From Candidatus Cryptobacteroides faecihippi (GTDB lineage: Bacteria; Bacteroidota; Bacteroidia; Bacteroidales; UBA932): a stretch of DNA of 33,650 nucleotides. Numbering within the stretch: the first letter of the stretch is position 1; each line of letters begins with the position of its first letter. Position numbers and translations under genes: made by a program. This document shows positions 13,390-31,045 of this stretch, one piece after another. The notes under the pieces are model-generated. The model saw only the letters and a program-made list of their open reading frames with translations. It searched no databases and was not told the origin of the DNA. The stretch lies in contig JAGHSC010000207.1 of the NCBI GenBank assembly GCA_018066065.1, positions 1-33,650 of the forward strand, given 5' to 3'.

Positions 13390-14607
13390 ATGAACACGAA
13401 CATCATCACAAACAATCCAAAGATAGGAGACGCCGTAGTCGGCAATCTCCTCACAGGCAATGTTGAGTATATCAAGGGAGAGTCCTTCTCCCTTGCAGCT
13501 CTCAACTCGTCAGTCTACGAGACCATCGGTGCAGTCTACGGACGTAGAGGTCGTCAGGTCAAGGTGGCCTTCAAGGAGAACGCCAACAAGATCTGGTGCA
13601 CCAAGTACAGCTACCGCCTCTCCGGCTACACCCTCGACGGTACGAACCGCTCCGGCGTGATCTCCATCTGTGAGAGCTCGTCTGCTTCTGCCAACACCGA
13701 CTTCACGGTGAGCTACAACGCCACCACCGTCCAGGGCCTTGTTGACCAGCTCAACGCCTTCTTCCAGGCGACTGCAATCTTCAAGACTCAGAAGTGGGCC
13801 GCAGCCGTTGTTGACGGTGCGATTGACATCACCTTCGACTACACCTTCTGGCAGCAGGCATCCTACAACACCGCCAAGACCGGCTTCGCCTTCTCGGCTA
13901 ACCTCATGCCGGATGTGACTGCACTTGCAAACATCCGCCGCAAGAACGGATACACCGGAGGCGAAGGTGTCATCTCGTCCTTCCCTCGTGCGCTCGCGTA
14001 CTTCAGGGCTGACAACTCGTCAACCACCTACAACCCGAACACCGACGTCACCAACATCAAGAGGAACTATCCGATCTGTCTCCCTGGATACCTCGGTACA
14101 AGCCAGTATCAGAGCGACCACTGCGCGAAGCTCCGCGAGGTCTTCGGAGAGGGTGAGGAAGGCTGGCTCAAGTTCATGGCGTCCTGCATGCCGGTGAAGC
14201 CTTGCGACAACGGCAACATGGGAACTCGTGACGGACTCGAGAGGACCAAGGTGCTCGCATCCAAGCTCACAGCGGACGGTGCAAAGATGTGTCCGGCTGC
14301 TGACTACTGCTACAGCAAGGGCACAGTGACCGTCCCTCAGGGCAACTGGTACCTGCCAACCGTTGAGGACATCAGCGACCTGCTCGACACCATCCAGTAC
14401 GGCACGAACGGAAGCAGGACAGCCGACCCTGTGAACGCTACCCTCTACAAGATGGGCGGCAGTGCAATCAGCAATGGTTCGCACGTCTGGACCTGTTGTC
14501 GTAGCAGCGCCAGCGTCGCCTGGTACGCTAGCGGCTACTACGGCTTCTTCGGCTACGGCATGTTCAACAGCGTCCTCGCGGTGCCCGTTGCGCTCTTAAC
14601 TATTTGA
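13390..14607 (+). CDS. DGR target protein 1 (putative receptor-binding, C-type-lectin-like C-terminus)
   Basis: C-terminal 118-nt VR matching TR except at TR adenines; NWYLPTVEDISDLLDTI... preceding the VR; follows fiber genes. Confidence 0.88.
   Translation: MNTNIITNNPKIGDAVVGNLLTGNVEYIKGESFSLAALNSSVYETIGAVYGRRGRQVKVAFKENANKIWCTKYSYRLSGYTLDGTNRSGVISICESSSASANTDFTVSYNATTVQGLVDQLNAFFQATAIFKTQKWAAAVVDGAIDITFDYTFWQQASYNTAKTGFAFSANLMPDVTALANIRRKNGYTGGEGVISSFPRALAYFRADNSSTTYNPNTDVTNIKRNYPICLPGYLGTSQYQSDHCAKLREVFGEGEEGWLKFMASCMPVKPCDNGNMGTRDGLERTKVLASKLTADGAKMCPAADYCYSKGTVTVPQGNWYLPTVEDISDLLDTIQYGTNGSRTADPVNATLYKMGGSAISNGSHVWTCCRSSASVAWYASGYYGFFGYGMFNSVLAVPVALLTI
14475..14592 (+). repeat. DGR variable repeat VR1
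   Basis: 118 nt aligned to TR without gaps; 18 differences, all at TR adenines (10 A>G, 7 A>T, 1 A>C). Confidence 0.95.
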
Positions 14608-14618
14608 AATTAAACCTT

Positions 14619-14642
14619 GGGCACGGCCTCCGTGCCGTGCCC
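14619..14642 (+). terminator. Hairpin downstream of VR1 (GGGCACGG/CCGTGCCC) with T-rich 3' flank; terminator or DGR cis element
   Basis: Perfect 8-bp inverted repeat, 8-nt loop, followed by CTTGACTTTTT. Confidence 0.6.
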
Positions 14643-14658
14643 CTTGACTTTTTCTCCT

Positions 14659-15090
14659 ATGCAACTATCTGAGAGTTCCATCTACATCGGTCTGAAAAGA
14701 CTCAGGCGCATCCTCTACCAGGCACAGTTCCTCATGGGCAAAGCTGACCGTATTGTCTACGGCACACCGCTCATGCAGGAGTGCGCCAATGTCCTCCGCT
14801 ACTATATCCTCGCCTTCGACACGAAGAGCAGGAAGACGGAGTACATGGACGAGGCGATGGGCTGGTATGCCGTCCTTCGTGAGGACATCGAGTTCTGCAC
14901 CGAGCAGAACATGATCCACTACGCGAAGCGCAAACCGAAGACGTCAGATCCAACTCCTGACGAGTACATCAACAGCCAGATGATTGAACTCTTCGAGATT
15001 GTCGCAAGGATAGACGCGGATATGTGCAGGTATCGGGCGAGTCTCATAAAGGGCAAGACCGTAGTCGATTTTGAGGCTACGGCAGACTGA
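14659..15090 (+). CDS. avd: DGR accessory variability determinant (Avd-like, 143 aa); start revised from 14617
   Basis: Small helical protein (SSIYIGLKRLRRILYQAQFLMGKADRIVYGTPLMQECANVLRYYILAF...) directly between target and TR/RT. Confidence 0.7.
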   Translation: MQLSESSIYIGLKRLRRILYQAQFLMGKADRIVYGTPLMQECANVLRYYILAFDTKSRKTEYMDEAMGWYAVLREDIEFCTEQNMIHYAKRKPKTSDPTPDEYINSQMIELFEIVARIDADMCRYRASLIKGKTVVDFEATAD

Positions 15091-15101
15091 CAAGAATAGA
15101 G

Positions 15102-15143
15102 GAGCGCCGGTGTCTTTCACACCTACAACCAGGACAGGCGCTC
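15102..15143 (+). ncRNA. Structured 5' leader of the TR RNA
   Basis: Outer stem GAGCGCC (15102-15108)/GGCGCTC (15137-15143); inner hairpin GGTGT-ctttc-ACACC (15109-15123). Confidence 0.5.
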
Positions 15144-15155
15144 GTGAACTCCGCA

Positions 15156-15273
15156 TGGTTCGAACATCTGGACCTGTTGTCGTAACAGCGCCAACAACGC
15201 CTGGAACGCTAACGGCAACAACGGCTTCTTCAACAACAACATGTACAACAGCAACCTCGCGGTGCCCGTTGCG
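15156..15273 (+). repeat. DGR template repeat (TR)
   Basis: Shared 118-nt repeat located between avd and RT; 32 adenines; 13 AAC codons in the VR reading frame. Confidence 0.95.
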
Positions 15274-15302
15274 AACTATTCACAAATCAGAAATACAGAG
15301 CA

Positions 15303-16484
15303 GTGCTACTACTTCAGGACATAATTGACGCATACCGTCTCGCACGACACAACAAGAGACGGAGCCCCGACCAGGTGGAGTTCGAGCTTCACTGGCAGAG
15401 GAACTGTGTCCAATTATATCATGACATCGTAGAGCGCCAGCTCCGCCCGACTGCCTACACATTCATCGCACCTCACCCACGACCTCGAGAGGTCTTCGCC
15501 TCAGACATGGCGACCCGAGTGCTCCATCACTACCTTGACATCAGACTGCGTCCCTTACTCGAGAAGCGCATGAGCGACCACACGTTCAACAACCGCGTCG
15601 GCATGGGACAATCAGCCTGCCAGGAGGCCGTGATCAATGACATCTATGAGATGAGCAACGGCTTCACCTCGGATGCCTGGATCATCAAGGTCGACATGTC
15701 GGGATGCTTTCCTAACATAAGGCAAGACACCGCCTATCAGCAATTGCTCGAGGTCATCATGGAGGACTACGAAGGCCACGACAAGGACGAGCTGATATAC
15801 ATGCTTCAGGTGTGTATCTTCAGCTATCCGACGCACCACTGTACACGAAAGTCCTCCCTCGACAAATGGAAGGACATCCCGGACTCAAAGAGCCTGTTCA
15901 AGAAGCCGGACGGTATAGGCGCAGCCATCGGTCACCTCATCTGGCAGAACGCCGTCAACTATTACTTCCACGAGATTGACGAGTGGATGCTCTCCTTCCC
16001 GGAGCTTCGCTTCGAGAGGTTTGTTGACGACATCTATATAATCACCAGAAGCAAGACCGCTCTGCTGCTCATCCCTGAACTCAGACAGAGACTTGCTGAC
16101 CTTGGAGCGACTCTCCATCCGAACAAGTTCTACTGCCAGCACTACACCAAGGGCGTGGAGTGCCTCGGGGCTCACATCAAGATGGACCGGATCTACCCGA
16201 ACAACAGGATTGTGGACCGTGCCGTCATGAGGGCCAAGACCTTCAACGGCTGCGTCCGTCCCGAGAAGGTGAACGACCTGCTCTCTTCTCTCAACTCCTA
16301 CTTCGGGATATTCAAGCACGGGAACGGATTCAACCAGGCCATGAAGGTGGTCCGCGCTCTGGATCCGGCGTGGTTTAAGTACGTACACTTCAACGCCCGC
16401 CGTGTCTGCCTTGAGGCGAACGACGGCTACAAGTACCGACAGCTTCTGGCCAAAAGGTATCATCTAACACCAACAACAGCATGA
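15303..16484 (+). CDS. DGR reverse transcriptase (GTG start)
   Basis: RT motifs: DMATRVLHHYLDIRLRPLLE, KVDMSGCFPNI, GIGAAIGHLIWQNAVNYYF, FERFVDDIYII catalytic box, LHPNKFYCQHYTKGVECLGAHI; 30 nt downstream of TR. Confidence 0.95.
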   Translation: MLLLQDIIDAYRLARHNKRRSPDQVEFELHWQRNCVQLYHDIVERQLRPTAYTFIAPHPRPREVFASDMATRVLHHYLDIRLRPLLEKRMSDHTFNNRVGMGQSACQEAVINDIYEMSNGFTSDAWIIKVDMSGCFPNIRQDTAYQQLLEVIMEDYEGHDKDELIYMLQVCIFSYPTHHCTRKSSLDKWKDIPDSKSLFKKPDGIGAAIGHLIWQNAVNYYFHEIDEWMLSFPELRFERFVDDIYIITRSKTALLLIPELRQRLADLGATLHPNKFYCQHYTKGVECLGAHIKMDRIYPNNRIVDRAVMRAKTFNGCVRPEKVNDLLSSLNSYFGIFKHGNGFNQAMKVVRALDPAWFKYVHFNARRVCLEANDGYKYRQLLAKRYHLTPTTA

Positions 16485-16729
16485 CACAAAACGAAAAGTT
16501 AGAGCTGCTCCAGCAGCAGCATGAGGTCGTTCTCAAGGAGAGCGCATACCTCAACGAGACGGACTACGTCGCCGCGAAGATTGCCGAAGGCTCAGCCACA
16601 AAGACCGAGTACAAGAGCGTCATCGAGGAGAGACGTCTGAGCCGTGAACGCATCAACGCCGCACAGGCAGAGATTGAGCGCCTCAACAGCATCGAACCTG
16701 AAGAGGAGCCGAGACCTATGGAGGACTAA
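16481..16729 (+). CDS. Hypothetical protein, 82 aa
   Basis: ORF overlapping the RT stop by 4 nt; Glu/Arg-rich helical. Confidence 0.6.
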   Translation: MTQNEKLELLQQQHEVVLKESAYLNETDYVAAKIAEGSATKTEYKSVIEERRLSRERINAAQAEIERLNSIEPEEEPRPMED

Positions 16730-16732
16730 ACC

Positions 16733-16990
16733 ATGAGGAAGTTCTGGGACATCATCGTGGGATTCCTCTGCAAGGTTCCCTACGACAAGCTCATGCACTT
16801 CTGCGTGGGCCTCATCATCGCGAGCTTCTTCTGCATCACTCTGGGCATGAAGGCCTGCATCGTGCCGGTCATCTTCGCCGGTTTCGCGAAGGAGTTCTTC
16901 GACATCTGGACAACCAAACAGTGGGATTGGTTCGACTTCCTTGCTACCTGCGTGGGCGGTCTGATCATTCAGCTGTTCGCTATCTTCTGA
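16733..16990 (+). CDS. Small membrane protein, holin candidate
   Basis: 85 aa with several hydrophobic segments upstream of endolysin. Confidence 0.55.
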   Translation: MRKFWDIIVGFLCKVPYDKLMHFCVGLIIASFFCITLGMKACIVPVIFAGFAKEFFDIWTTKQWDWFDFLATCVGGLIIQLFAIF

Positions 16991-16994
16991 CGTC

Positions 16995-17255
16995 ATGGCA
17001 AGGGAAATCATCAACTCAATCCGTGGCTGCGCCTGGTTCTGGATCCTGTCCGGCATCGCAATCCTTCTGCTCATCGTCTCGCTCTTCATCCCTCCCACAG
17101 GGGTCATTGACGAGTCGGTGCTGAAGGCAGTCGGCGAGATCTTCGGCTTTGCGGCTCTGGGCACCGTGCTCTATGCCATCAACCGAGGCGTGGACGCAAA
17201 GCTCGCGAAGGGTGACACCTCGATAGAAATCAACTCGCCAGATGGGAACAATTAG
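16995..17255 (+). CDS. Small membrane protein, holin candidate
   Basis: 86 aa; FWILSGIAILLLIVSLFIP and second hydrophobic segment. Confidence 0.55.
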   Translation: MAREIINSIRGCAWFWILSGIAILLLIVSLFIPPTGVIDESVLKAVGEIFGFAALGTVLYAINRGVDAKLAKGDTSIEINSPDGNN

Positions 17256-17667
17256 CAAGCACTTCTCCTACCGGGAATTTGAGGCCAGCCCTACCGCTGA
17301 CCATCTCGGGATCTGCAACGTCATCGTCACCCCGGAGGTGCGTGATGCGGTCAAGGCTCTCGTCCTTGAGGTTCTTGAGCCGCTCCGCACCAAGTGGGGC
17401 GAACCTCTGCATGTCAACTCAGGCTATCGCTGCCCTGACCTCAACAAGGCCGTGGGCGGTGTGCCTACCTCTCAGCATCAGAAGGGTGAGGCCGCCGACA
17501 TCAAGGCGGACAATCCTCTCGAGCTGGCGAGGCTTGCCATGGTTCTCGGTCTCCCGTTTGACCAGATGATCCTCTACCCGACCTTCGTGCATTTCAGCCA
17601 CAAGCTGAACGGTAAGCAGCGCAGGCAGGTGTTGTACAACAAATCCTACAAAGGTCCGAAACTATGA
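17242..17667 (+). CDS. Endolysin, peptidase M15 family
   Basis: VNSGYRCPDLNKAVGGVPTSQHQKGEAADI ... FVHFSH zinc-ligand pattern. Confidence 0.88.
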   Translation: MGTISKHFSYREFEASPTADHLGICNVIVTPEVRDAVKALVLEVLEPLRTKWGEPLHVNSGYRCPDLNKAVGGVPTSQHQKGEAADIKADNPLELARLAMVLGLPFDQMILYPTFVHFSHKLNGKQRRQVLYNKSYKGPKL

Positions 17668-18143
17668 GACAAGCATTGAAAGGGCCAGTATTTGCGGCCG
17701 TTTTTCTGGTCCTTACGGCCTGCAGTCCTAAGATCTACCCGACACAGACCGACTCTATCAGGGTGGAATATCGCGACCGCATCGTGACCATTGTCGACAC
17801 CGTCACGTTCGAAGTGCCCGTCATCAGTGAGAAGGTCGTGACCAGGGACACCACGTCGCACCTTGAGAACGAGTGGGCGAGCTCGGACGCAACTGTATCA
17901 GAAGGACTGCTCTCTCATAGTCTCCAGACGAGACCGCACGTCGTGGAGATACCGGTGGAGACCCTTGTAGAAGTCCACGACACCCTTGTGGTGAAGGAAA
18001 AGGCTGAGACAATCGTGAAGGAGGTCGAGAGGCAGCCCACCAGACGGGAATCCTTCCTGATTGTCTGCGGAGAGATCTTCCTCGTCATGGTGGTTCTTGC
18101 TCTTCTCGGATTGCTTGTCAAGGCTTATCTAAAGCGCCGATAG
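17664..18143 (+). CDS. Putative unimolecular spanin (lipoprotein with C-terminal transmembrane helix)
   Basis: N-terminal signal with lipobox LTAC; C-terminal FLIVCGEIFLVMVVLALLGLLVKAYLKRR; directly after endolysin. Confidence 0.6.
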   Translation: MRQALKGPVFAAVFLVLTACSPKIYPTQTDSIRVEYRDRIVTIVDTVTFEVPVISEKVVTRDTTSHLENEWASSDATVSEGLLSHSLQTRPHVVEIPVETLVEVHDTLVVKEKAETIVKEVERQPTRRESFLIVCGEIFLVMVVLALLGLLVKAYLKRR

Positions 18144-18270
18144 TGTCACCATTGGTGTCACGGCTTTGTAAGTCCTTGATATTCAAGCTACATTGTGGAG
18201 ATGGGCGGACTATCACAACACTCAATCTAAGGCCGTAGGAGGCCACATACACGGCCAGAAGCTGGTCTTT

Positions 18271-18310
18271 GTGGGTCTGATTGGGTCTGTGAGGGTCTCA
18301 TTGGGTCAGT
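18271..18310. repeat. Four GGGTC direct repeats with exact 10-bp period
   Basis: GGGTC at 18273, 18283, 18293, 18303. Confidence 0.75.
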
Positions 18311-19592
18311 CTTTGGTGTCACGGTTCAGTGCATCGAAGCCAGCCATCGCCTTCTTCCTCTGCGAGTCTGTCACATCTATGTAGGGGCGCATCGCCCTGT
18401 AGTCATTATGTCCCGTCCACTGCATCACAACGGTGGGCGGGATTCCCATTTTCAATGCGTTGCACACGAAGGTGCGCCTACCCGCGTGCGTACCCATGAG
18501 CCCCCACTTCTCGCAGGTCACCTCGGAGCGCTCTGAGCCGTGATATTCCACCACCGTCATCTTGGTGTTGAGGCCGCAGTCCTTGGAGATCCTCTTCAGG
18601 TACCGGTTCATCACCTGGTTCGGTATCTGAGGAAGGCAGTGGCCGTCACCGTGGTCGCGGTCTATGTGACGCTCCAGGATCTCTCGGCTCCACTTGTTGA
18701 GATCTATCGTCAGGGCGCGTGCGGTCTTCTGCGTCACGAGCCTGAAGGAGTCCTCGCCCACATCGGTCCAGCGGAGATTCTGGGCGTCGGAGTATCGCAG
18801 AGAGGTGAAGCAGCAGAACAGGAACACATCGCGCACATCGTTGAGGTAGGTGTGGCCCTCTGGAGCTTCGTAGCTCCAGAACTTCATGAGCTCGTCCCAG
18901 TCGAGGAAGATGACCGGCTTGGCCGGACTCTTGAGCTTCGGACGGAAGGCGTCGTAGTCGTTGGTAGGCATGAGGCCCTTGCGGTCCGCCCAGGCGCAGA
19001 ACCAGCGCACATATCCGAGCTGGCGCTGGATGGTCGTGTCGTTGTGTCCTTCGGATGTTCGGAGGAACTCCACATACTTGGCGAAGTTGTACGAGGTGAA
19101 CCCATCGAAGGTCTGAAACGGCGCGAAGTCTCCCATGTGGCGCTTGACCGTCTTCATCTTCCTGATGGTCGCCTCACTCCATGCACGACGGACTGACTCC
19201 TCAGTCATGAACTGCCTGAAGGCCTCCCCCGTGGTATGGATGCCTGGAGCGTCAAGGCCGAGACGGACACGGAGTTCTGAGCGCACCTCGGAGACGGACG
19301 GCCACTTGTCAATGACTGCAAAGTCGGAGAAGACTGCCGCCGCCGTGTCGCGGTATCTGTTGATCTCGTTGTTGATAACCTGAGCCGGTATCTTCATAGG
19401 CCCATGAGTGGAGCGCAGCTTGCACATCTGTGTCGAGGTGTCCCACTTCTCCGGATCCACGAGGAAGCCGAGGTTGATGCTCACGATGGAGCGCGAGCCG
19501 TTCCACTTCGCACGACATACCAGGTGAGCGTGAAGGTCGTCCTCTTTCCTCTTGTGGGGGAAGAAGAACAGAGTGTACTTGAGCTGTATCAT
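18306..19592 (-). CDS. int: Tyrosine recombinase / phage integrase
   Basis: LFCCFTSLRYSDAQNLRW..., GTHAGRRTFVCNALKMGIPPTVVMQWTGHNDYRAMRPYIDV: R, HxxR, H/W, Y catalytic pattern. Confidence 0.95.
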   Translation of the reverse strand: MIQLKYTLFFFPHKRKEDDLHAHLVCRAKWNGSRSIVSINLGFLVDPEKWDTSTQMCKLRSTHGPMKIPAQVINNEINRYRDTAAAVFSDFAVIDKWPSVSEVRSELRVRLGLDAPGIHTTGEAFRQFMTEESVRRAWSEATIRKMKTVKRHMGDFAPFQTFDGFTSYNFAKYVEFLRTSEGHNDTTIQRQLGYVRWFCAWADRKGLMPTNDYDAFRPKLKSPAKPVIFLDWDELMKFWSYEAPEGHTYLNDVRDVFLFCCFTSLRYSDAQNLRWTDVGEDSFRLVTQKTARALTIDLNKWSREILERHIDRDHGDGHCLPQIPNQVMNRYLKRISKDCGLNTKMTVVEYHGSERSEVTCEKWGLMGTHAGRRTFVCNALKMGIPPTVVMQWTGHNDYRAMRPYIDVTDSQRKKAMAGFDALNRDTKD

Positions 19593-19981
19593 GACTGAAG
19601 CTTCTCGATGATGCCGAGAAGACGGTCTATCTGGGCCTGCTGCTTCTCGATGATTCGCTGGAGGGCAGCTGTGTCGGTTCCGCCCACCGTCTGGTTGTGC
19701 CCGTTGTTCACCACATTGTGATTGCCCTGTACATTGGTGGAGGACACCAGCATCTGGGTGTGTTCAGCATCCATCAGGAATAAAGGATCAATTTCTGGAA
19801 AGTATTCACTGACTGTGTACGCAAGGTCGCGAGTTACACGGCGTCTGCCGCACATATACTCCGACAACTGGCTGCGACTTTTACCCATCGTCTTCCCAAA
19901 TTCCGACTGATTACGGATTTTTCCTTGAGAGATCAAAAAATTTTGTACGTCTCTAAGTCTTTGATTCATAATATCTTTCAT
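19589..19981 (-). CDS. XRE-like HTH transcriptional repressor (start revised from 20056)
   Basis: SQGKIRNQSEFGKTMGKSRSQLSEYMCGRRRVTRDLAYTVSEYFP HTH; C-terminal coiled coil; divergent from early genes. Confidence 0.75.
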   Translation of the reverse strand: MKDIMNQRLRDVQNFLISQGKIRNQSEFGKTMGKSRSQLSEYMCGRRRVTRDLAYTVSEYFPEIDPLFLMDAEHTQMLVSSTNVQGNHNVVNNGHNQTVGGTDTAALQRIIEKQQAQIDRLLGIIEKLQS

Positions 19982-19996
19982 ACGCAAGCAAATAGT

Positions 19997-20008
19997 TTTT
20001 GTACAAAA
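19997..20008. promoter_or_regulatory. 12-bp perfect palindrome TTTTGTACAAAA, candidate operator
   Basis: Palindrome read directly between divergent repressor and early genes; half-site TTTTGTAC also at 19941-19948. Confidence 0.45.
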
Positions 20009-20033
20009 TTGATGGATTTTTCCTCTCGCAGTA

Positions 20034-20065
20034 TTGCATTTGAAGGAAAAATTCACTTATCTTTG
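20034..20065 (+). promoter_or_regulatory. Candidate Bacteroidetes-type early promoter (TTG-N21-TATCTTTG)
   Basis: TTG at 20034, TATCTTTG at 20058-20065, upstream of the early operon. Confidence 0.6.
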
Positions 20066-20104
20066 CACCGTTGTTACTAACAAAGTTAATAATAAACGGC
20101 AGAA

Positions 20105-20317
20105 ATGAAAGTACAAAAGACGAAATCAGGGAGAATCATGCTCCTCACCACACTGAGCACGATGGAGGTCGGCGAGAAGTGGAAAATCGACCCGCTCACA
20201 TACAAGACCGCGACGCTCAGAGTGACCTGCTCCAACTACGGAGCCGCAGTGAACAAAGTGTTCACAGTGAACAGTCCGGCAGATGCAAAGAAGATCATAA
20301 TAACAAGAACACGATAA
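20105..20317 (+). CDS. Small early protein, 70 aa
   Basis: First gene after the divergent promoter region. Confidence 0.6.
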   Translation: MKVQKTKSGRIMLLTTLSTMEVGEKWKIDPLTYKTATLRVTCSNYGAAVNKVFTVNSPADAKKIIITRTR

Positions 20318-20331
20318 AACGTCAAAACGCC

Positions 20332-20553
20332 ATGAAAAAGACACCGCTCCACTACATCATCACCACAATCCTCACAGTCATCGGCATGATTGCCTTCTGC
20401 GTCATGGTATCAGAGCCGGCCGAAGGTCACAAGTTCACCGTCCTGCCCAACCTCATCGCCATGGGCGTGATCTGGGCGGAGATAAAACTTGCCGAGTGGC
20501 TTGAGAAGAACAACATCATCCAGACCGATCTGTTTGACGACGAGACAGTATAG
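20332..20553 (+). CDS. Small membrane protein, 73 aa (start revised from 20071)
   Basis: MKKTPLHYIITTILTVIGMIAFCVMVSEPAEG hydrophobic segment. Confidence 0.55.
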   Translation: MKKTPLHYIITTILTVIGMIAFCVMVSEPAEGHKFTVLPNLIAMGVIWAEIKLAEWLEKNNIIQTDLFDDETV

Positions 20554-20622
20554 GGCGAGGCCCAGAGCAAGCAAGAACCCGCCACCGTCGTGAGGACGTA
20601 GGCACTTATACGCAAGCAGACA

Positions 20623-20737
20623 GCCGGGAGAGACCGGCACCTTGGAAAGCTCGGACACCTCCGGAGAGGTGATAGGCGTGAGTGAGATAATACTTGCTAA
20701 GCATTCCACGCCACAGGGTCCGACTCCCTGGCTTTCC
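20623..20737 (+). ncRNA. Structured RNA candidate with tRNA-like elements
   Basis: GGAAAGC(20644)/GCTTTCC(20731-20737) closing stem, hairpins CACCTC/GAGGTG and GGCGTG/CACGCC, CAGGG-TCCGACT-CCCTG T-arm-like hairpin, TTGCTAA loop; preceded by GCCGG-gagaga-CCGGC hairpin. Confidence 0.35.
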
Positions 20738-20740
20738 ACT

Positions 20741-21040
20741 ATGATCGCACTGAACACAAAGATAGCAGACCTCACCGTCGGGGAGTTTCAAGAGCTCCTC
20801 CGCTCGGCATTTACCCCGGGAGGGGGTATCCCGATTTACCCCGGGGGTAACAGGGAGTTTGCGACCGGAGTGACAGGACTCGCTGAGGCTCTCGGGGTCT
20901 CCTATTCCACAGCCAAGAGGCTCAAGGCGTCAGGCGTCCTGGACAAGGCAATCACCCAGACCGGCAAGGTCATCATCACAGACGTGGCGCTTGCACGACA
21001 GCTGCTCACAAGGGCCACACACGGAAGACATACCAAGTAA
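20741..21040 (+). CDS. DUF3853-like DNA-binding protein (start revised from 20642)
   Basis: MIALNTKIADLTVGEFQELLRSAF ... LAEALGVSYSTAKRLKASGVLDKAITQTGKVIITDVALARQLL. Confidence 0.6.
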   Translation: MIALNTKIADLTVGEFQELLRSAFTPGGGIPIYPGGNREFATGVTGLAEALGVSYSTAKRLKASGVLDKAITQTGKVIITDVALARQLLTRATHGRHTK

Positions 21041-21051
21041 AACTTCATAAT

Positions 21052-21471
21052 ATGGAACCATTGAAACTGAACATCGAAGTCACCCTGAGTGACGAGAGCA
21101 TCAACAAGCTGGTGACCGCCTTGGGAGCGGCCATCGGTGGCTCGTTCGCCGGTGTCCTCGCGAAGCTCGCAAACGGAGCCCTTGAAGAGGCACCAAAAGC
21201 CGAGGCGGTAGAAGAACCCGCCGCACCGGTTGAGGCCGCTCCTGCGCCACAGGAGAAGCCAGCAGACGACATCCCTGAAGACCTCCCGATTACCGACGAG
21301 GAAATGGCGGAGGCAACACGCGCAGCGGTCACCCGACTGAAGGCCGCAGGCAAGTCCATACTATTCATCCGTACCGAGATCTTCGCCAAGTACGGCTGCA
21401 ACAACAGCGCCGGCTGTCCTCTGAGCAAGAGACCAGCTCTCCTTGAAGAACTCCAGAACATCGAGAAGTAA
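21052..21471 (+). CDS. Hypothetical early protein, 139 aa
   Basis: ORF in operon; Ala/Pro/Glu-rich linker. Confidence 0.65.
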   Translation: MEPLKLNIEVTLSDESINKLVTALGAAIGGSFAGVLAKLANGALEEAPKAEAVEEPAAPVEAAPAPQEKPADDIPEDLPITDEEMAEATRAAVTRLKAAGKSILFIRTEIFAKYGCNNSAGCPLSKRPALLEELQNIEK

Positions 21472-22685
21472 TGCCAAGCCAGCACGCCATACTCGCACCG
21501 TCCGCCTCCAAGAGGTGGATGACCTGCACACCCTCAGCACGTCAGGAGGCCAAGTACCCGTCAAAGGACTCGGTCTTCTCACGTGAGGGTACGATAGCAC
21601 ATGCGCTCGCGGAGTTCACCCTCAACTACTTCCTCGAGGAGAAGGCCGTCTATGTGCCGGAGTTCGAGGTATTTCAGAAGAGGATGAGACAGGAGAACCC
21701 TTCCCTGCTGCTGGACCTCACCGTCCAGTGTACCGATGAGGGCTTCGACTTCTGGGACATCTTCGAGATTGTCTACAACAACTACGTCACCATCGTGTAC
21801 GAAGACTTCCTCAATGTCAAGAAGGAGTTCGAGGATGCAGAGCTGCTCGTTGAGGCAGAGTTGAACCTCAAGTCCTACATCCCGGAAAGCTTCGGCTCAT
21901 CAGATGCCGTTCTGATCTACGGAGAAATCCTCAAGGTTTACGACCTCAAGTTCGGCCAGGGAGTCAAGGTCGAGGCTGAGAACAACACACAGATGCTCTG
22001 CTACGCCCTGGGCGCACTCCTCGGTCCTGCGGAGCTCAACGGCATCGACACCGTCCAGATGACCATCATCCAGCCGAGACTCCAGCACATCAGCTCGTGG
22101 AGCATCAGCGCTGACAAGCTCATCCAGTGGGCGACATACGAACTCAAGCCGGCGGCCCTGAAGGCCTTCAACGGCGAGGGAGAGTATGTGCCGGGCGACC
22201 ACTGCAAGTTCTGCCGTATCGCTCCGAGGTGCCGCGCCTGCGCCCTCCGTGCTACTATCCTCGCAGAGTCCAACAGTGAACCGTCCGAGCTGACCGACGA
22301 AGAGCTCGCAGACCTTCTCTACAAGCTGGAGTCCATCAAGAACTGGACGAGCAAGGTCGAGGAGTACGCGCTGCAGCAGGCAGTCAGCGGTCACGCCATC
22401 CCAGGCTGGAAGGTTGTCGAGGGCAGGAGCATCAGCAAGATCCAGGACCAGCAGTCAGCGATGGCCGACCTGTTCAGCGCCGGCTTCGAGAAGGATCTGG
22501 TCTGCAAGCCTGTCGAACTCAAGGGCATCACGGATCTGAAGAAGATCCTCCGTCCGAAGGGCTTCGAGGAACTCCTCGGCAAGTACGTCGTCAAGCCTCA
22601 GGGCAAGCCGACCCTTGCACCGGTATCAGACAAGAGACCCGAGATGAACAACATCGAGGGAGATTTCAATAACGTCATTTTATAA
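21471..22685 (+). CDS. DUF2800-family protein (Cas4/PD-(D/E)XK nuclease-like)
   Basis: LAPSASKRWMTCTPSARQEA..., DLKFGQGV, C-terminal FCRIAPRCRACA Cys cluster. Confidence 0.85.
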   Translation: MPSQHAILAPSASKRWMTCTPSARQEAKYPSKDSVFSREGTIAHALAEFTLNYFLEEKAVYVPEFEVFQKRMRQENPSLLLDLTVQCTDEGFDFWDIFEIVYNNYVTIVYEDFLNVKKEFEDAELLVEAELNLKSYIPESFGSSDAVLIYGEILKVYDLKFGQGVKVEAENNTQMLCYALGALLGPAELNGIDTVQMTIIQPRLQHISSWSISADKLIQWATYELKPAALKAFNGEGEYVPGDHCKFCRIAPRCRACALRATILAESNSEPSELTDEELADLLYKLESIKNWTSKVEEYALQQAVSGHAIPGWKVVEGRSISKIQDQQSAMADLFSAGFEKDLVCKPVELKGITDLKKILRPKGFEELLGKYVVKPQGKPTLAPVSDKRPEMNNIEGDFNNVIL

Positions 22686-22713
22686 CCTCAAAACGTAAAA
22701 CGTCATGAACACA
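22686..22713 (+). repeat. 28-bp direct repeat, copy 1 (CCTCAAAACGTAAAACGTCATGAACACA)
   Basis: Identical to 23043-23070; contains the ATG of the downstream ORF. Confidence 0.9.
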
Positions 22714-22854
22714 AACATGTCAAAAGTCATCACGCTACTACAGCAGACCATCACGCTACAACAGCGGGCCATCGAACTGATGGAGAACATCGAGAGCCCA
22801 TCATTCCCTTCAAGCAATGGGGGGGGCAAAGTATCATCCGCATGCAAAGACTAA
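22705..22854 (+). CDS. Small protein, 49 aa (MNTNMSKVITLLQQTITLQQRAIELMENIESPSFPSSNGGGKVSSACKD)
   Basis: ORF read manually; leader identical to that of the DUF2815 gene; overlaps 22817 ORF across a G8 tract. Confidence 0.5.
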   Translation: MNTNMSKVITLLQQTITLQQRAIELMENIESPSFPSSNGGGKVSSACKD

Positions 22855-23041
22855 ATGGGTAGCCTTGAGCAAACTTCCCGATGTCATGAAGAAGTACAAT
22901 CCGGAGCAATTTGCAGCGCTTTCCAAAGCCGAGATCACCACGATGATTTCTGATTCGGCCCGGATAGTCACCGACCGCGACAACAGGAAATACATCAGCA
23001 TCAAGGACGTCGAAAAACTACAACAACAGTACAATTTTTAA
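22817..23041 (+). CDS. Hypothetical 74-aa protein, possibly the out-of-frame C-terminal part of the preceding ORF
   Basis: WVALSKLPDVMKKYNPEQFAALSKAEITTMISDSARIVTDRDNRKYISIKDVEKL. Confidence 0.55.
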   Translation: MGGAKYHPHAKTKWVALSKLPDVMKKYNPEQFAALSKAEITTMISDSARIVTDRDNRKYISIKDVEKLQQQYNF

Positions 23042-23042
23042 T

Positions 23043-23070
23043 CCTCAAAACGTAAAACGTCATGAACACA
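23043..23070 (+). repeat. 28-bp direct repeat, copy 2
   Basis: Identical to 22686-22713. Confidence 0.9.
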
Positions 23071-23646
23071 CAAGAAACCAAGGTAGTGGTAGGCGAAATC
23101 CGCCTCAGCTATGTCCACGTATTTGAACCCGTGGCAGTCGGCAACAGCGCAGACAAGAAGTACAGCGTGAGCCTCATCATCCCTAAGTCGAACACCAAGC
23201 TCGTGGAGGAGACCAAGGCCGCCATCAAGGCCGCATACACTGACGGCATCACCAGCAAGTGGCAGGGCAAAGAGCCTGCAAAGGGTACATGGAAGAATCC
23301 TCTCCGCGATGGCGACATCGAACGCAGCGAGGACGAGGCATATCAGGGAGCCTACTTCCTGAACGCCACAAGTAAGACCGCTCCAGGCGTGGTGAAGATG
23401 AACCCGACCGGCAATCCGAAGTATGTGGCCATCACTGCCCAGGAGGAGCTCTACAGCGGCTGCTTCGGATACGTGTCCGTGAACTTCTACCCGTTCGTGA
23501 ACACAGGCAACAAGGGAGTGGCCTGCGGACTCAACAATGTCCTCAAGACCCGCGACGGAGAGTTCATGGGTGGCCGTGCCAGCGCTGAGTCCGACTTCAA
23601 CGGGCTCGAGATCAATGCCAACCTCGACGACAACGACATCTTCTAA
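23062..23646 (+). CDS. DUF2815-family protein, putative phage ssDNA-binding protein
   Basis: VVVGEIRLSYVHVFEPVAVGNSADKKYSVSLIIPKSN... Confidence 0.85.
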   Translation: MNTQETKVVVGEIRLSYVHVFEPVAVGNSADKKYSVSLIIPKSNTKLVEETKAAIKAAYTDGITSKWQGKEPAKGTWKNPLRDGDIERSEDEAYQGAYFLNATSKTAPGVVKMNPTGNPKYVAITAQEELYSGCFGYVSVNFYPFVNTGNKGVACGLNNVLKTRDGEFMGGRASAESDFNGLEINANLDDNDIF

Positions 23647-23649
23647 GCC

Positions 23650-24171
23650 ATGGCAGAGATCATCTACAAGAAGGGATGCGACGGGCACAAGCCCGTCACC
23701 CTTTCAGACATCGAAGGCATCAGCCTCGAGCTTCTGAACGGTGAGACCATCGTGGTCTTCCCGAAGTACAAGGACGTGAAGTTCCTCGATAGGGAGAAGA
23801 TCAGCAAATACACCCGCAAGAACTTCTCCGAGTTCGATGCCCTCCATGTCAAGAGCACGGATGCGACCATCCTCACCGACGAACTTCTCGCCCTTGAGAG
23901 CCCAGCCGCAAAGCATGTCAGGGAGCAGGGAGCCTACGACCTCCCGTCCCTTCTCGCAGCTGGCGAGATCATGAAGCAGAGGGATGAGATCGACAAACTC
24001 GCGAGAACCATCGAAGGGGCTGACCTCTTCGACAATTGTGGTTCGAGCATCTGTACCTGTTGTCGTGACAGCGCCGGCTTCGCCTGGTACGCTCACGGCG
24101 GCAGCGGCTTCTTCAACGGCGGCATGTACAGCAGCTTCCTCGCGGTGCCCGTTGCGCTCTTGAAATATTAA
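23650..24171 (+). CDS. DGR target protein 2 (173 aa) in the DNA-metabolism operon
   Basis: C-terminal VR2 matching TR; CLec-like run AYDLPSLLAAGEIMKQRDEIDKLARTIEGADLF before VR; 3 nt after the DUF2815 stop. Confidence 0.88.
   Translation: MAEIIYKKGCDGHKPVTLSDIEGISLELLNGETIVVFPKYKDVKFLDREKISKYTRKNFSEFDALHVKSTDATILTDELLALESPAAKHVREQGAYDLPSLLAAGEIMKQRDEIDKLARTIEGADLFDNCGSSICTCCRDSAGFAWYAHGGSGFFNGGMYSSFLAVPVALLKY
24039..24156 (+). repeat. DGR variable repeat VR2
   Basis: 118 nt aligned to TR without gaps; 19 differences, 18 at TR adenines (12 A>G, 5 A>T, 1 A>C), one G>T at repeat position 16. Confidence 0.95.
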
Positions 24172-24183
24172 ATCTTAATCCTT

Positions 24184-24212
24184 GCCGGAGGCGCAAGACT
24201 CCGGCCCTTTTT
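24184..24212 (+). terminator. Hairpin GCCGGAG-gcgcaaga-CTCCGGC followed by T-run, downstream of VR2
   Basis: 7-bp perfect stem then CCTTTTT. Confidence 0.7.
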
Positions 24213-25060: not shown

Positions 25061-25214
25061 GGTGGCGAGCAGCGATGACTACTGCTGCGGCAACTGCCAG
25101 TACATGGAGAACGAGGACGCCTACGGATATGGATGGTGCGCTGTCCATCAGGCTGAGACCTACTGCGGTCTTCAGTGTCCTCACCACATAACTGAAAAAG
25201 ACGACGAAGAATGA
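25041..25214 (+). CDS. Cys-rich small protein, 57 aa (not in the ORF track)
   Basis: MGKASIKVASSDDYCCGNCQYMENEDAYGYGWCAVHQAETYCGLQCPHHITEKDDEE; stop overlaps the polymerase start. Confidence 0.6.
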   Translation: MGKASIKVASSDDYCCGNCQYMENEDAYGYGWCAVHQAETYCGLQCPHHITEKDDEE

Positions 25215-27319
25215 AACACCTGCACATAGATATAGAAACCTACAGCCCCGAGCCGATTGCCGACTGCGGAGCCTACAGATACGCGATGAATCCCGAGTTC
25301 GAGATCCTGCTGGTGGCCTATGCCAAGGATGACGAGCCGACTCAGATCATCGACCTCGCAAGCGGCGAAAAACTCCCCGAGTGGTTCGTTCAAGCTCTCC
25401 TCGACCATCAGGTGACCAAGCATGCACACAACGCAGTGTTCGAGCGTGTCTGCTTCACCATGTGGTTGAGGCGTCACACCTGCATCATAGCAGATGACGA
25501 ATGGCTCAACCCGATGGACTGGGAGTGCAGCTCCGTCAAGGCCGGAAGGTGCGGTCTGCCTCTGAGCTTGAAGGGAGCCGGCGAAGCTCTCCGACTCTCG
25601 GAGCAGAAGATGGACGAGGGCAAGTCTCTCATCCAGCTGTTCTGCACACCTCGCAAGGTCCGCAAAGGATCCGAGAACGAGGGACTCTTCGGAGAACTTC
25701 CCAAGAGGGTGCAGCCGTCCGAGTATCCCGACAAGTGGGAAACCTTCAAGGCATACTGCATCAGGGACGTGGACGTGGAGCGCAGCATAGAGGAGGCGCT
25801 CAGCTGGTACGAGGTCAGCGACTTCGAGAAGGCTCTCTACGCCATCGATCAGCGCATCAACGACTACGGCGTCCGCATAGACCTCGACATGGTGACCGAG
25901 GCGAACCGCATGGACATCCTCACCAAGTCAAGGCTCTCGGCCGAGGCCGTGACCATCACCGGCCTGAGCAACCCGAACTCAGGACCGCAGCTCAAGGCGT
26001 GGCTCTCGGAGAGACTCGGCATCGACATCCCGTCACTCACCAAGACAACCCTTCCCGACATCGTCGGCGAAGCAAGAAGGCAGAGGGACACAGTTGCCCT
26101 CAGAGTCCTGCAGATCCGCGCGGAAATGGGCAAGACGAGCAACGCCAAATACGACGCGATGCTGTCGGTGGTAGGCCCTGACGGAAGGGCACGAGGACTC
26201 ACCCAGTTCTACGGATCACGCACAGGCCGATGGGCCGGACGACTCATCCAGATGCAGAACCTTCCGCAGAATCACATCGGCGCCCTGGACACTGCGAGAC
26301 AGATGCTCAAGGCCGCAGACTATGACAGCCTCGACCTCACCTTTGGCAACGTGCCCGACACCATCAGCCAGCTCATCCGCACATCGTTCATCCCGAGCGA
26401 TGGCAAGATCTACGCGGTCTGCGACTTCTCAGCCATCGAGGCACGAGTGCTCGCATGGATGGCCGGTGAGGAATGGGTGCTTGACACCTTCCGCCAGGGT
26501 GGTGACATCTACTGCGCGACTGCGTCTCAGATGTTCCACAAGCCTGTGGAGAAGCACGGCCAGAACGCACACCTCCGCCAGAGAGGAAAGGTCGCAGTCC
26601 TCGCCCTCGGATACGGTGGCGGAGTGTCAGCCCTCGACGAGATGGGCGGTGCCCGTCTCGGCATGACCGAAGAGGAGGAGGCCGACACCGTGAAGATGTG
26701 GCGCAACGCCAACCCCGGCATCGTGGCCTTCTGGGGCCTCGTGGAGAAAGCAGCGAAGGAGTGCATCGTCTACAAGACCACCCGCAAGGTGGAGACACCC
26801 CACACCAGTGTGACCTTCCGCATGGAGGACAGCACCATGACCATCGAGCTCCCTTCCGGCAGGAAGATCTGCTATCCTGAGGCCGAGCTGCACTTCGACA
26901 GGGAGTGGGCATGCACGGGACAGACAGCAGCCCAGGCGGCAACCGACTCAAGCTTCATCAAGAAGGAGAAGCCAGCTCTGCACCCTGAGCGACACTACAT
27001 GGACAAGGGAGCATCCATCCGCTTCATGGGAACCAACCAGACAACCCGCAAGTGGGAATGGATTGAGACCTGGGGAGGAAAGCTCACGGAGAACATCGTG
27101 CAGGCAGTAGCCCGTGACTGCCTCGCTGAGACAATGGTCAACTGCATGAAGGCAGACTTCCCTGTTGTCTTCCACATCCATGACGAGCTCGTGATGGAGG
27201 TCTCATCGGAGGACAAGCTCGAGGAGATCCAGGACATCTTCGCCATCGTGCCCTCATGGGCAAACATGCTCCCTCTGAGGGGCGCAGGATATACCGGAAA
27301 TTATTACTACAAAGACTAA
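25211..27319 (+). CDS. Family A DNA polymerase with 3'-5' exonuclease-like N-terminus
   Basis: MKHLHIDIETYSP; FYGSRTGRWAGRLIQMQNLPQ; CDFSAIEARVLAWMAGE; HDELVMEV. Confidence 0.95.
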   Translation: MKHLHIDIETYSPEPIADCGAYRYAMNPEFEILLVAYAKDDEPTQIIDLASGEKLPEWFVQALLDHQVTKHAHNAVFERVCFTMWLRRHTCIIADDEWLNPMDWECSSVKAGRCGLPLSLKGAGEALRLSEQKMDEGKSLIQLFCTPRKVRKGSENEGLFGELPKRVQPSEYPDKWETFKAYCIRDVDVERSIEEALSWYEVSDFEKALYAIDQRINDYGVRIDLDMVTEANRMDILTKSRLSAEAVTITGLSNPNSGPQLKAWLSERLGIDIPSLTKTTLPDIVGEARRQRDTVALRVLQIRAEMGKTSNAKYDAMLSVVGPDGRARGLTQFYGSRTGRWAGRLIQMQNLPQNHIGALDTARQMLKAADYDSLDLTFGNVPDTISQLIRTSFIPSDGKIYAVCDFSAIEARVLAWMAGEEWVLDTFRQGGDIYCATASQMFHKPVEKHGQNAHLRQRGKVAVLALGYGGGVSALDEMGGARLGMTEEEEADTVKMWRNANPGIVAFWGLVEKAAKECIVYKTTRKVETPHTSVTFRMEDSTMTIELPSGRKICYPEAELHFDREWACTGQTAAQAATDSSFIKKEKPALHPERHYMDKGASIRFMGTNQTTRKWEWIETWGGKLTENIVQAVARDCLAETMVNCMKADFPVVFHIHDELVMEVSSEDKLEEIQDIFAIVPSWANMLPLRGAGYTGNYYYKD

Positions 27320-28621: not shown

Positions 28622-31045
28622 ATGGAAACCTACAGTATATCAACAGGACGCTCACGACTGGAGCAGGAATGGAAGGCCAAGCAGGTCAGCTGGGAGAACC
28701 TCGTGCAGAGACTCTCCCAGGTCAAGAGGACCGCTGAGACCTTCAGAGAGTACCAGGCCATGAGCCGCACCGACAAAGGCAAGCTCAAGGATGTCGGAGG
28801 CTTCGTCGGTGGTGTCATCGAGGGAGGACAGCGCAAAGCTGGCAACATCGTCAGCCGTTCGCTCGTGACCCTCGACATCGACTTCGGAACAGCCGACACC
28901 CTCGGCATCGTGGAGGACATGATGGCAGGCACCGCGTGGTGTCTCTACTCCACACACTCACACAGCTCGGCATCTCCACGCTACCGACTCATCGTACCGT
29001 TGACGAGAGCTGTCACTCCGGACGAATACATCCCGATCGCGAGAAGGCTCGCGGAGACCATCGGCATCGACATCTTCGACGACTCCACCTATCAGCCGGA
29101 GCGCCTCATGTACTGGCCGTCAGCGGCACAGGACGGAGAGTTCGTCTTCAGATCAGGCGGGGGTGACCCCGCTGGCGTTGAGGCTCTTCTCGGCTCCTTC
29201 ACCGACTGGAGGGATGTCACCGAGTGGCCGGTCAGCAAGCGCGTCCAGAGGCTCGCACAGAGCCACGGAAACAAGCAGGAGGACCCAACCCTCAAGCCGG
29301 GCATCATCGGCGCCTTCTGCCGTGCGTATTCAATCAGCGAGGCCATCGAGACCTTCCTCCCAGATGTCTACGAGCCTACAGGCAAGGACGACCGCTACAC
29401 CTTCATCGGCGGAACGACCGAAGCCGGTGCGGTGGTCTATGAGGACAAGTACCTCTACAGCCACCACGGCACCGACCCATGCTGTGAGCGTGAGGTCAAC
29501 GCCTTCGACCTCGTCAGGATCCACAAGTACGGACACCTCGACGAACAGAGCAGCCAGGACACTCCGGTGAACAAGCTGCCGTCCTTCGTGGAGATGGACC
29601 GCTTCGCCAGAGCGGACCGCAAGGTGAACGGAGTCATCGTGAGAGAGAAGCTCGCGAGCCTTGACAGCGATTTTGCTGACGTCAGCAAAATAGAAGAGGA
29701 GAGCGACGAGAGCTGGAAGGACCTGCTGAAGGTAGGCAAGAACGGACTGCTCGCAACGCCGGCCAACTACAACCTCCTCCTGAGGAACGACGCCGGACTG
29801 AGGGACGCGGTAAGGCATGACAGCTTCCGTGGGCGCAATGTCCTGACACGCGATCTGCCGTGGAGGAAGATGGAGTCCAACCCATTCTGGGAGAACTCCG
29901 ACGACGTCAACCTCATCGGATATGTGTCCCGCTGCTATGGAGGTTCCGCAATCACCAAAACCGTGCTCCTGGACGAGTGGGATGCCGTTATCTCGCAGAA
30001 CTCCTTCCATCCGGTGCGGGACTTCCTCAACTCACTGCCTCAGTGGGACGGTGTTTCCCGTCTGGACACACTTCTCGTTGACTATTTAGGTGCCACAGAC
30101 TGCCCGCTCACGAGGGCAATGACCCGCAAGCACTTCACGGCTGCTGTGGCGCGTATCTTCGAGCCGGGCATCAAGTACGACTACGTGCTCACGCTCACCG
30201 GTCCTGAGGGAGTCGGCAAGTCCACCCTCATCAAGAGCCTGGCGGGCGAATGGTTCGACGACAGCTTCTCCACCGGCAGCATCGGAGACAAGGAAGCCAT
30301 GGAGCACGTGCATGGAAGGTGGTGCATCGAGATGGGCGAGCTCAAGGACTACAAGAAGAACACGGTGGAGGCCTTCAAGGCTTTCATCAGCAAGCAGGAG
30401 GACGCCTTCAGACCGGCATACGGACGCAAGACGGAAATCTACCGCAGGCAGTGTGTCTTCTTCGCCACAACGAACGAGAAAGCCTTCCTGAAGGGAGACA
30501 CGGGCAACCGCCGCTTCTGGGCCGTTGAGGTCATGGAGGACCTTCCTCAGAAGGACGTCTTCAACATAGACGAGGCGACCCGCCTGCAGATATGGGCTGA
30601 AGCTCTGAAGCGGTACCGTGACCGCGAGCCGCTCTTCCTGGATCCGTCGATGGAGAGGGAGGCACGCATCCGCCAGCAGGAGCACAACGAGATCACGACT
30701 GACGAGCGCATCGGCATCATCGACGCCGGGCTCAGGAGACACCTCCCGACCACGTGGTGGAGCCTCAACCGTCAGCAGCGGCGTGACTTCTACAAGGGTG
30801 CGTACATGGACGACAACGAGCCGTATCTGAGGCGCGAGACCATCTGCGTGGCTGAGGTGCAGGAGGAGTTCTTCGGGGCTCAATCCGACCGCTACAAGAA
30901 CCGCGAAATCGCGCAGATCCTTCGTGGCATGGGCCTCGAAGAAATCGGTGTGGCAAGGAACAAGGACGACCGCGAATACGGTGTCCAGATGAGGTTCAAA
31001 ATCCCGGACTCCTTTTGGTCAGTTACGGAGGTTTATCTCAAGTAG
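28622..31045 (+). CDS. VirE-like primase/helicase (P-loop ATPase)
   Basis: SLVTLDIDFGTAD ... LYSTHSHSSASPRYRLIVPL; GPEGVGKSTLIKSLAGEWFDDSF; FFATTNEKAFLKGDTGNRRFWAVEV. Confidence 0.9.
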   Translation: METYSISTGRSRLEQEWKAKQVSWENLVQRLSQVKRTAETFREYQAMSRTDKGKLKDVGGFVGGVIEGGQRKAGNIVSRSLVTLDIDFGTADTLGIVEDMMAGTAWCLYSTHSHSSASPRYRLIVPLTRAVTPDEYIPIARRLAETIGIDIFDDSTYQPERLMYWPSAAQDGEFVFRSGGGDPAGVEALLGSFTDWRDVTEWPVSKRVQRLAQSHGNKQEDPTLKPGIIGAFCRAYSISEAIETFLPDVYEPTGKDDRYTFIGGTTEAGAVVYEDKYLYSHHGTDPCCEREVNAFDLVRIHKYGHLDEQSSQDTPVNKLPSFVEMDRFARADRKVNGVIVREKLASLDSDFADVSKIEEESDESWKDLLKVGKNGLLATPANYNLLLRNDAGLRDAVRHDSFRGRNVLTRDLPWRKMESNPFWENSDDVNLIGYVSRCYGGSAITKTVLLDEWDAVISQNSFHPVRDFLNSLPQWDGVSRLDTLLVDYLGATDCPLTRAMTRKHFTAAVARIFEPGIKYDYVLTLTGPEGVGKSTLIKSLAGEWFDDSFSTGSIGDKEAMEHVHGRWCIEMGELKDYKKNTVEAFKAFISKQEDAFRPAYGRKTEIYRRQCVFFATTNEKAFLKGDTGNRRFWAVEVMEDLPQKDVFNIDEATRLQIWAEALKRYRDREPLFLDPSMEREARIRQQEHNEITTDERIGIIDAGLRRHLPTTWWSLNRQQRRDFYKGAYMDDNEPYLRRETICVAEVQEEFFGAQSDRYKNREIAQILRGMGLEEIGVARNKDDREYGVQMRFKIPDSFWSVTEVYLK

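Follow-up and report, generated by a model that had tools for sequence, protein, structure and literature searches.

The stretch of DNA analysed here, called the window below, is the complete 33,650-base contig (G000:C270) of a metagenome-assembled genome (MAG) of Candidatus Cryptobacteroides faecihippi. Its genes suggest a rumen-type gut phage or prophage, temperate and siphovirus-like, broken within the terminase gene and running in the order portal, capsid, tail proteins, a tail protein with a variable repeat (VR1), an Avd-like open reading frame (ORF), a template repeat (TR), a reverse transcriptase (RT), an M15 peptidase, an integrase, a helix-turn-helix repressor and a rightward replication operon. 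Our subject is its diversity-generating retroelement (DGR), whose single TR appears to serve both VR1 and a distal variable repeat (VR2) in a small gene of the replication operon. Its parts are the following (IMH, initiation of mutagenic homing).

13390-14607, plus strand: VR1 target, a 405-aa tail-module protein with a putative C-terminal C-type-lectin-like domain; VR1 at the 3′ end
14475-14592, plus strand: VR1, the proximal variable repeat; 3′ end GCGCTCTT; 18 of 18 differences at TR adenines
14617-15090, plus strand: candidate Avd-like accessory protein between the VR1 gene and TR, 157 aa as listed, true start possibly further downstream
15156-15273, plus strand: TR; 3′ end GCGAACT, IMH*-type
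15303-16484, plus strand: DGR reverse transcriptase, 393 aa, intact, with an FVDD catalytic motif
23650-24171, plus strand: VR2 target, an ORF for a 173-aa stand-alone protein with no obvious signal peptide and the VR at its C-terminus; full-length relatives in G217 (43%) and G372 (39%)
24039-24156, plus strand: VR2, the distal variable repeat; 3′ end GCGCTCTT, IMH-type; 18 of 19 differences at TR adenines

A preliminary description of this DNA had reported that TR, VR1 and VR2 align without gaps over 118 nt, that TR holds 32 adenines and 86 other bases, that VR1 departs from it at 18 positions, all adenines, and VR2 at 19, all but one of them adenines, and that 10 of the changed adenines are common to both VRs and 8 unique to each. 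Direct comparison reproduced these figures exactly and places the one exception, a G-to-T change, at 24054. The restriction to adenines has a hypergeometric p of 6e-13 for VR1 and 1e-11 for VR2; a repeat search of the window recovered the same three copies, lengthened to 123 nt, and a scoring scan of the whole contig returned VR1 and VR2 as the only VRs. Since 21 of 118 positions distinguish the two VRs, which carry distinct sets of changed adenines, each VR records a transfer history of its own, and these same differences rule out VR2 as a simple copy of VR1. More generally, an origin of VR2 in chance, assembly error or recombinational copying from VR1 is scarcely credible: it can appeal only to the general risk that attaches to a metagenome-assembled contig, whereas the arrangement has been assembled independently in 15 other contigs and the flanks of VR2 are coding and syntenic. 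The TR adenines sit in AAC, AGC, TAC, ATC, ATG and ACC codons of the shared reading frame, and changes at A therefore cannot create stops.

An RT and a putative accessory protein adjoin the template. The RT matches Pfam RVT_1 (E=3.6e-12) and the PHROG reverse transcriptase family (E=4.8e-44), its ORF begins 30 nt after the end of TR, and its identity to RTs from other DGR contigs is 64-69%. Among named genome records, the closest by this protein are Bacteroidales and Prevotella MAGs from rumen or omasum, and one related genome (G059) belongs to the window's own genus. The Avd-like ORF has a weak PHROG Avd match (E=0.078) and similarly placed homologues in relatives, and homologues of the 405-aa tail protein bear the proximal VR in related DGR contigs. 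DGR RTs usually carry [IVL]GxxxSQ at a position where the window's RT (15303-16484) reads IGHLIWQ; the same W is found in the RT of G059.

The cis signals are those of an acceptor at both VRs. Identity between VR1 and VR2 extends a few bases beyond the TR match, both ending in GCGCTCTT as distinct from GCGAACT in TR, and the same contrast is seen in most of the relatives inspected (TR ...AATT, both VRs ...CTTT). It is the contrast between IMH and IMH* that makes the VR the acceptor. Two GC-rich hairpins follow the VRs, and none was found after TR in the window.

14619-14642, plus strand: hairpin downstream of VR1, GGGCACGGC-CTCCGT-GCCGTGCCC
24184-24205, plus strand: GC-rich hairpin 28 nt after VR2, GCCGGAG-GCGCAAGA-CTCCGGC, then CCTTTTT (also terminator-like)

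The loop after VR2 is thus GCGCAAGA and not CTCCGT as after VR1. Downstream of VRs in the window (14619-14642) and its relatives (L021, L089, L101, L106 and others), GC-rich stems vary and the loop is recurrently CTCCGT (or TCCG/TCCT), unlike the BPP-1-like GRNA. This combination of varying stems with a recurrent loop matches the rule established for Bordetella phage BPP-1, in which stem structure and loop sequence matter (PMC3240598).

The VR2 gene lies outside the structural module, in the replication operon, where it begins 3 bp after the stop of the gene for a single-stranded DNA-binding protein (SSB) and precedes DNA polymerase A (PolA) and a primase-helicase.

23062-23646, plus strand: Enc34/gp2.5-type ssDNA-binding protein (Pfam PF10991, E=1.7e-63; phrog_112)
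25211-27319, plus strand: DNA polymerase family A (PF00476, E=2.9e-27)
28622-31045, plus strand: VapE-type primase-helicase (PF05272, E=2.3e-74; phrog_256)

The C-terminal half of the VR2 protein aligns to the VR1 tail domain from a point upstream of the VR (84-178 of 180, profile E=2.6e-13; hhalign 98%), an alignment driven in part by the shared VR, which is C-terminal in both targets. The protein therefore probably carries a lectin-like domain of the same kind, the C-lectin label being taken solely from this homology to the VR1 domain. Searches of Pfam, PHROGs and PADLOC gave no meaningful match to the VR2 protein. A PADLOC scan of ten window ORFs around VR2 likewise gave no convincing match to a neighbouring defence or counter-defence gene; the G372 fragment alone has a DNA methyltransferase near its VR2 gene. 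Scanning the window for Rfam families and tRNAs returned no matches. A 37-nt direct repeat (92%; 22677-22713 and 23034-23070) spans the start of the SSB gene (ATGAACACA); its first copy (22677-22713) opens no long ORF and may be what is left of a gene start or leader that was duplicated.

The distal target recurs. RT-based scans yielded 18 IMG/VR contigs and 5 genome contigs, in which TRs and VRs were detected with an adenine-tolerant ungapped score; a distal VR was present in 9 of these 23 (G059, G206, G212-G217 and G221), many of the negatives being fragments. Searches with VR2 proteins added six contigs, each with a DGR (G423, G424, G425, G110, G673 and G674), which were left out of any prevalence rate owing to this route of entry. 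In all, 15 DGR contigs besides the window combine a single TR with a tail VR as well as a distal one, the last lying 7 to 33 kb from its TR and showing adenine restriction with p from 3e-5 to 7e-16 in the 13 relatives tested. VR2-like genes also occur in G422, G372, G168, G346 and G608, which are pieces or genomes without a detected RT. The complete distal ORFs encode stand-alone proteins of about 150-210 aa with a C-terminal VR (that of G206 is cut by the contig end) and fall into two families related through their C-terminal region: type A, comprising the window, G217 (43%), G372 (39%) and the fragment in G206, and type B, comprising all others ('MKIYIINPD..KPVTIDEWRKD'). A tblastn search of INPHARED with type A and type B proteins found no relatives.

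Seven contigs place the VR2 gene between an Enc34-type SSB gene and PolA, the gene being of type A in the window and of type B in G213, G214, G221, G422, G423 and G424. Elsewhere its neighbours are a DnaB helicase and an OB-fold SSB in G217, a primase in G059 and G346, and a DnaD-like gene, which it follows, in G212; in G425 it comes after a Sak-like annealing protein and ahead of an SSB. The interval from SSB to PolA also contains, close to the VR2 gene, a tRNA-Glu in G424, a tRNA-Tyr in G214 and a tRNA-like sequence, not called by ARAGORN, in G221/G422 (L145:10112-10190, L094:10242-10324 and L106 ~3740-3860), which suggests that the interval is an insertion hotspot. In G110 (L148-L150, G110:C2), an IS3-type transposase pair immediately precedes the VR2 gene at a distance of 33 kb from the RT. 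Contig ends coincide with the distal VR at the end of L143 and start of L142 (G423) and at the start of L079 (G206), and VRs may break assemblies; the difference at the G423 contig end was considered as a pair of VR2 alleles and rejected, since that end is chimeric and palindromic, and it was not used as evidence.

Two close pairs show how these genes diverge. G212 and G214 have in common a cassette of about 530 bp, reaching from 3 nt before the ATG to just beyond the hairpin, within unrelated flanks; the cassette is therefore mobile. Its two copies differ at 2 of 395 nt outside the VR and at 19 of 100 within it (Fisher p=2e-12), 17 of the latter at TR adenines. One non-adenine difference in VR2 (C/G) also separates the two resident TRs and the two VR1s, and each VR2 therefore carries the template of its own phage. 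In G221 and G422, whose flanks are near-identical, 15 of 104 VR positions differ, 13 of them at TR adenines, plus a 3-nt gap, compared with 9 of 352 positions outside. Values of dN/dS beyond the VR are mostly 0.1-0.57, which corresponds to purifying selection. The preliminary description had called for a comparison of the repeats across related phages and had named a VR2 that stays invariant where VR1 varies, or VR2 variation away from TR adenines, as evidence against its proposal; in the relatives, the two close pairs vary at the distal VR almost only at TR adenines, with the rest of the gene nearly fixed, a result that leaves the proposal standing. Taken together, the divergence in these pairs and the dN/dS values therefore indicate that the distal VR of the family has been rewritten from TR and that the gene is under selection, and we infer that VR2 of the window phage is probably rewritten in the same way.

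These data bear on whether VR2 might be a fossil or passive sink, a former recipient of TR copies that now drifts without function. The single non-adenine change in the window's VR2 could be taken in that sense, as could the four non-adenine changes in the VR of G206, which adjoins a contig end, and the contigs with a VR2-like gene but no RT, though these are fragments. Drift is nevertheless hard to reconcile with a window VR2 changed at only 1 of 86 non-adenine positions, with a gene body under purifying selection beside a hypervariable VR in the close pairs, or with an acceptor end and hairpin that have been retained and a second target maintained across divergent DGRs, and we regard a fossil as very improbable.

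We therefore favour a complete two-target DGR. TR RNA would be reverse-transcribed with errors at adenines, and the cDNA would replace VR1 in the tail protein gene in cis, 0.7 kb away, and VR2 in the gene for the second, small and putatively C-type-lectin-like protein in trans, over 8.9 kb. Diversification of VR1 would vary receptor binding, and the VR2 product would be synthesised early, within the host cell, and would serve as a variable binder of ligands in phage-host or phage-phage conflict, through counter-defence or superinfection control. We put the probability of this reading, in which the VR2 product is probably an early intracellular binder in such conflict, at roughly 0.85. Early and intracellular action is probable because the gene stands in the replication operon behind SSB, the product has no obvious export signal and the relatives' cassette has almost no upstream sequence of its own; for an intracellular location in particular, with the early expression and conflict role that go with it, we judge the odds somewhat better than even. 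The proposal first made from the window, that a single TR acts in trans to diversify a further protein whose gene stands among replication genes, is supported at the level of sequence comparison by the SSB-PolA setting, the adenine-restricted pairs and the 15 contigs with the same arrangement. The position of the second target beside replication genes also holds, but is less surprising than had been implied, given that distal, non-structural targets have been published for Bacteroidota phages (PMC8008677, PMC12629997).

Several observations weigh against the two-target reading or its functional part. The collections searched held no close relative of the window phage, so that no variation was seen at the window's own VR2. 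Loop sequence is critical for the BPP-1 hairpin (PMC3240598) and the loop after the window's VR2 is off-consensus; efficiency at VR2 could therefore be low at present. A complete genome with terminal repeats, G002, has VR1 and no distal VR, and the second target is therefore optional. The predicted structure of the window's VR2 protein was poor (pLDDT 57) and unusable for a PDB search, and a family model built from alignment A5 (pLDDT 90) had no PDB match at E<=0.001, its fold being unmatched to solved structures.

The main competing explanation accepts the two-target DGR and takes the VR2 protein for a minor virion or surface adhesin, used in accessory receptor binding or as a decoration protein, whose gene happens to lie in the early region. 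Such a role would fit the homology of its C-terminal half to the C-terminal domain of the tail protein, and the best viral structure matches of the family model include, besides a 107-aa uncharacterised siphovirus protein (41% identity), two larger phage proteins at TM 0.70-0.75. Most of the phage DGR targets known so far are tail proteins (PMC8144416), and tentaclins offer a precedent for a second tail-type target (PMC10743442). On the other side, neither a tail-attachment domain nor an export signal is apparent in the VR2 protein, and its gene lies in the replication operon here and in early regions, not the tail module, in the contigs examined. An adhesin is thus rather unlikely, though far less so than a fossil.

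Multi-target DGRs are fairly common (PMC6642488, PMC10743442), and Bacteroidota phages with a second, distal VR close to non-structural genes were reported in 2021 (PMC8008677) and in 2025 (PMC12629997). The Quimbyvirus ('Quimbyviridae') DGR of Bacteroides phages (Benler 2021, PMC8008677) resembles the present one in its single TR system, its tail-side VR and a second VR in an ORF distal to the structural genes, a C-type-lectin ORF judged non-structural, with adenine-restricted variation among near-identical genomes. In that group of genomes of ~75 kb, however, the second target is encoded on the other strand, and its neighbours are methyltransferases, a MutY-like nuclease and a tRNA ligase (PMC8008677), whereas the genes described here encode 150-210 aa, often stand in the SSB-PolA operon of contigs of ~34-42 kb and move as a cassette; this contrast is drawn with the published description of ORF 80/84. 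Four gut prophages have a second, distal VR near counter-defence genes, according to a Nature paper (2025, PMC12629997), unlike the usual neighbours of VR2 here, which are replication genes. BPP-1 shares TR and VR, adenine mutagenesis, the IMH difference and a hairpin after the VR with variable stem and conserved loop, but has a single target and a 4-nt GRNA loop (PMC3240598), where the loops here are mostly CTCCGT/TCCG and that of the window's VR2 is neither. Tentaclin DGRs likewise direct one TR at two targets in gut phages, yet their second target is larger, its VR domain being N-terminal and preceding the Ig domains, and is described as lying within the DGR cassette and as a receptor-binding protein (PMC10743442). 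Within the searchable literature, what is new here is the stand-alone families, their repeated site in the replication operon, the mobility of the cassette and its template-specific rewriting after transfer.

A broader proposal, which we advance tentatively and at somewhat less than even odds, is that rumen Bacteroidales phages carry a mobile target cassette, made up of a stand-alone lectin-like gene, a VR, an acceptor end and a hairpin, that enters early replication operons, undergoes constant rewriting by the DGR already present and acts as a hypervariable intracellular binder of host or rival-phage proteins and not of cell-surface receptors. Receptor switching has served as the explanation of phage DGRs; a second target that recurs, is kept by selection and is associated with genes for SSB, polymerase or primase represents diversification not obviously connected with adsorption, and the recurrence of VR2-type targets in no fewer than 15 further contigs of phages or prophages suggests that these phages diversify something besides host attachment. 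In G212 and G214, a moved cassette has acquired the sequence variant of the resident TR, which makes it a natural counterpart of engineered DGR retargeting, the IMH and hairpin of BPP-1 being enough to target a heterologous gene (PMC3240598). The conserved SSB-VR2-PolA layout and the structure of the cassette render its function testable in an inducible prophage.

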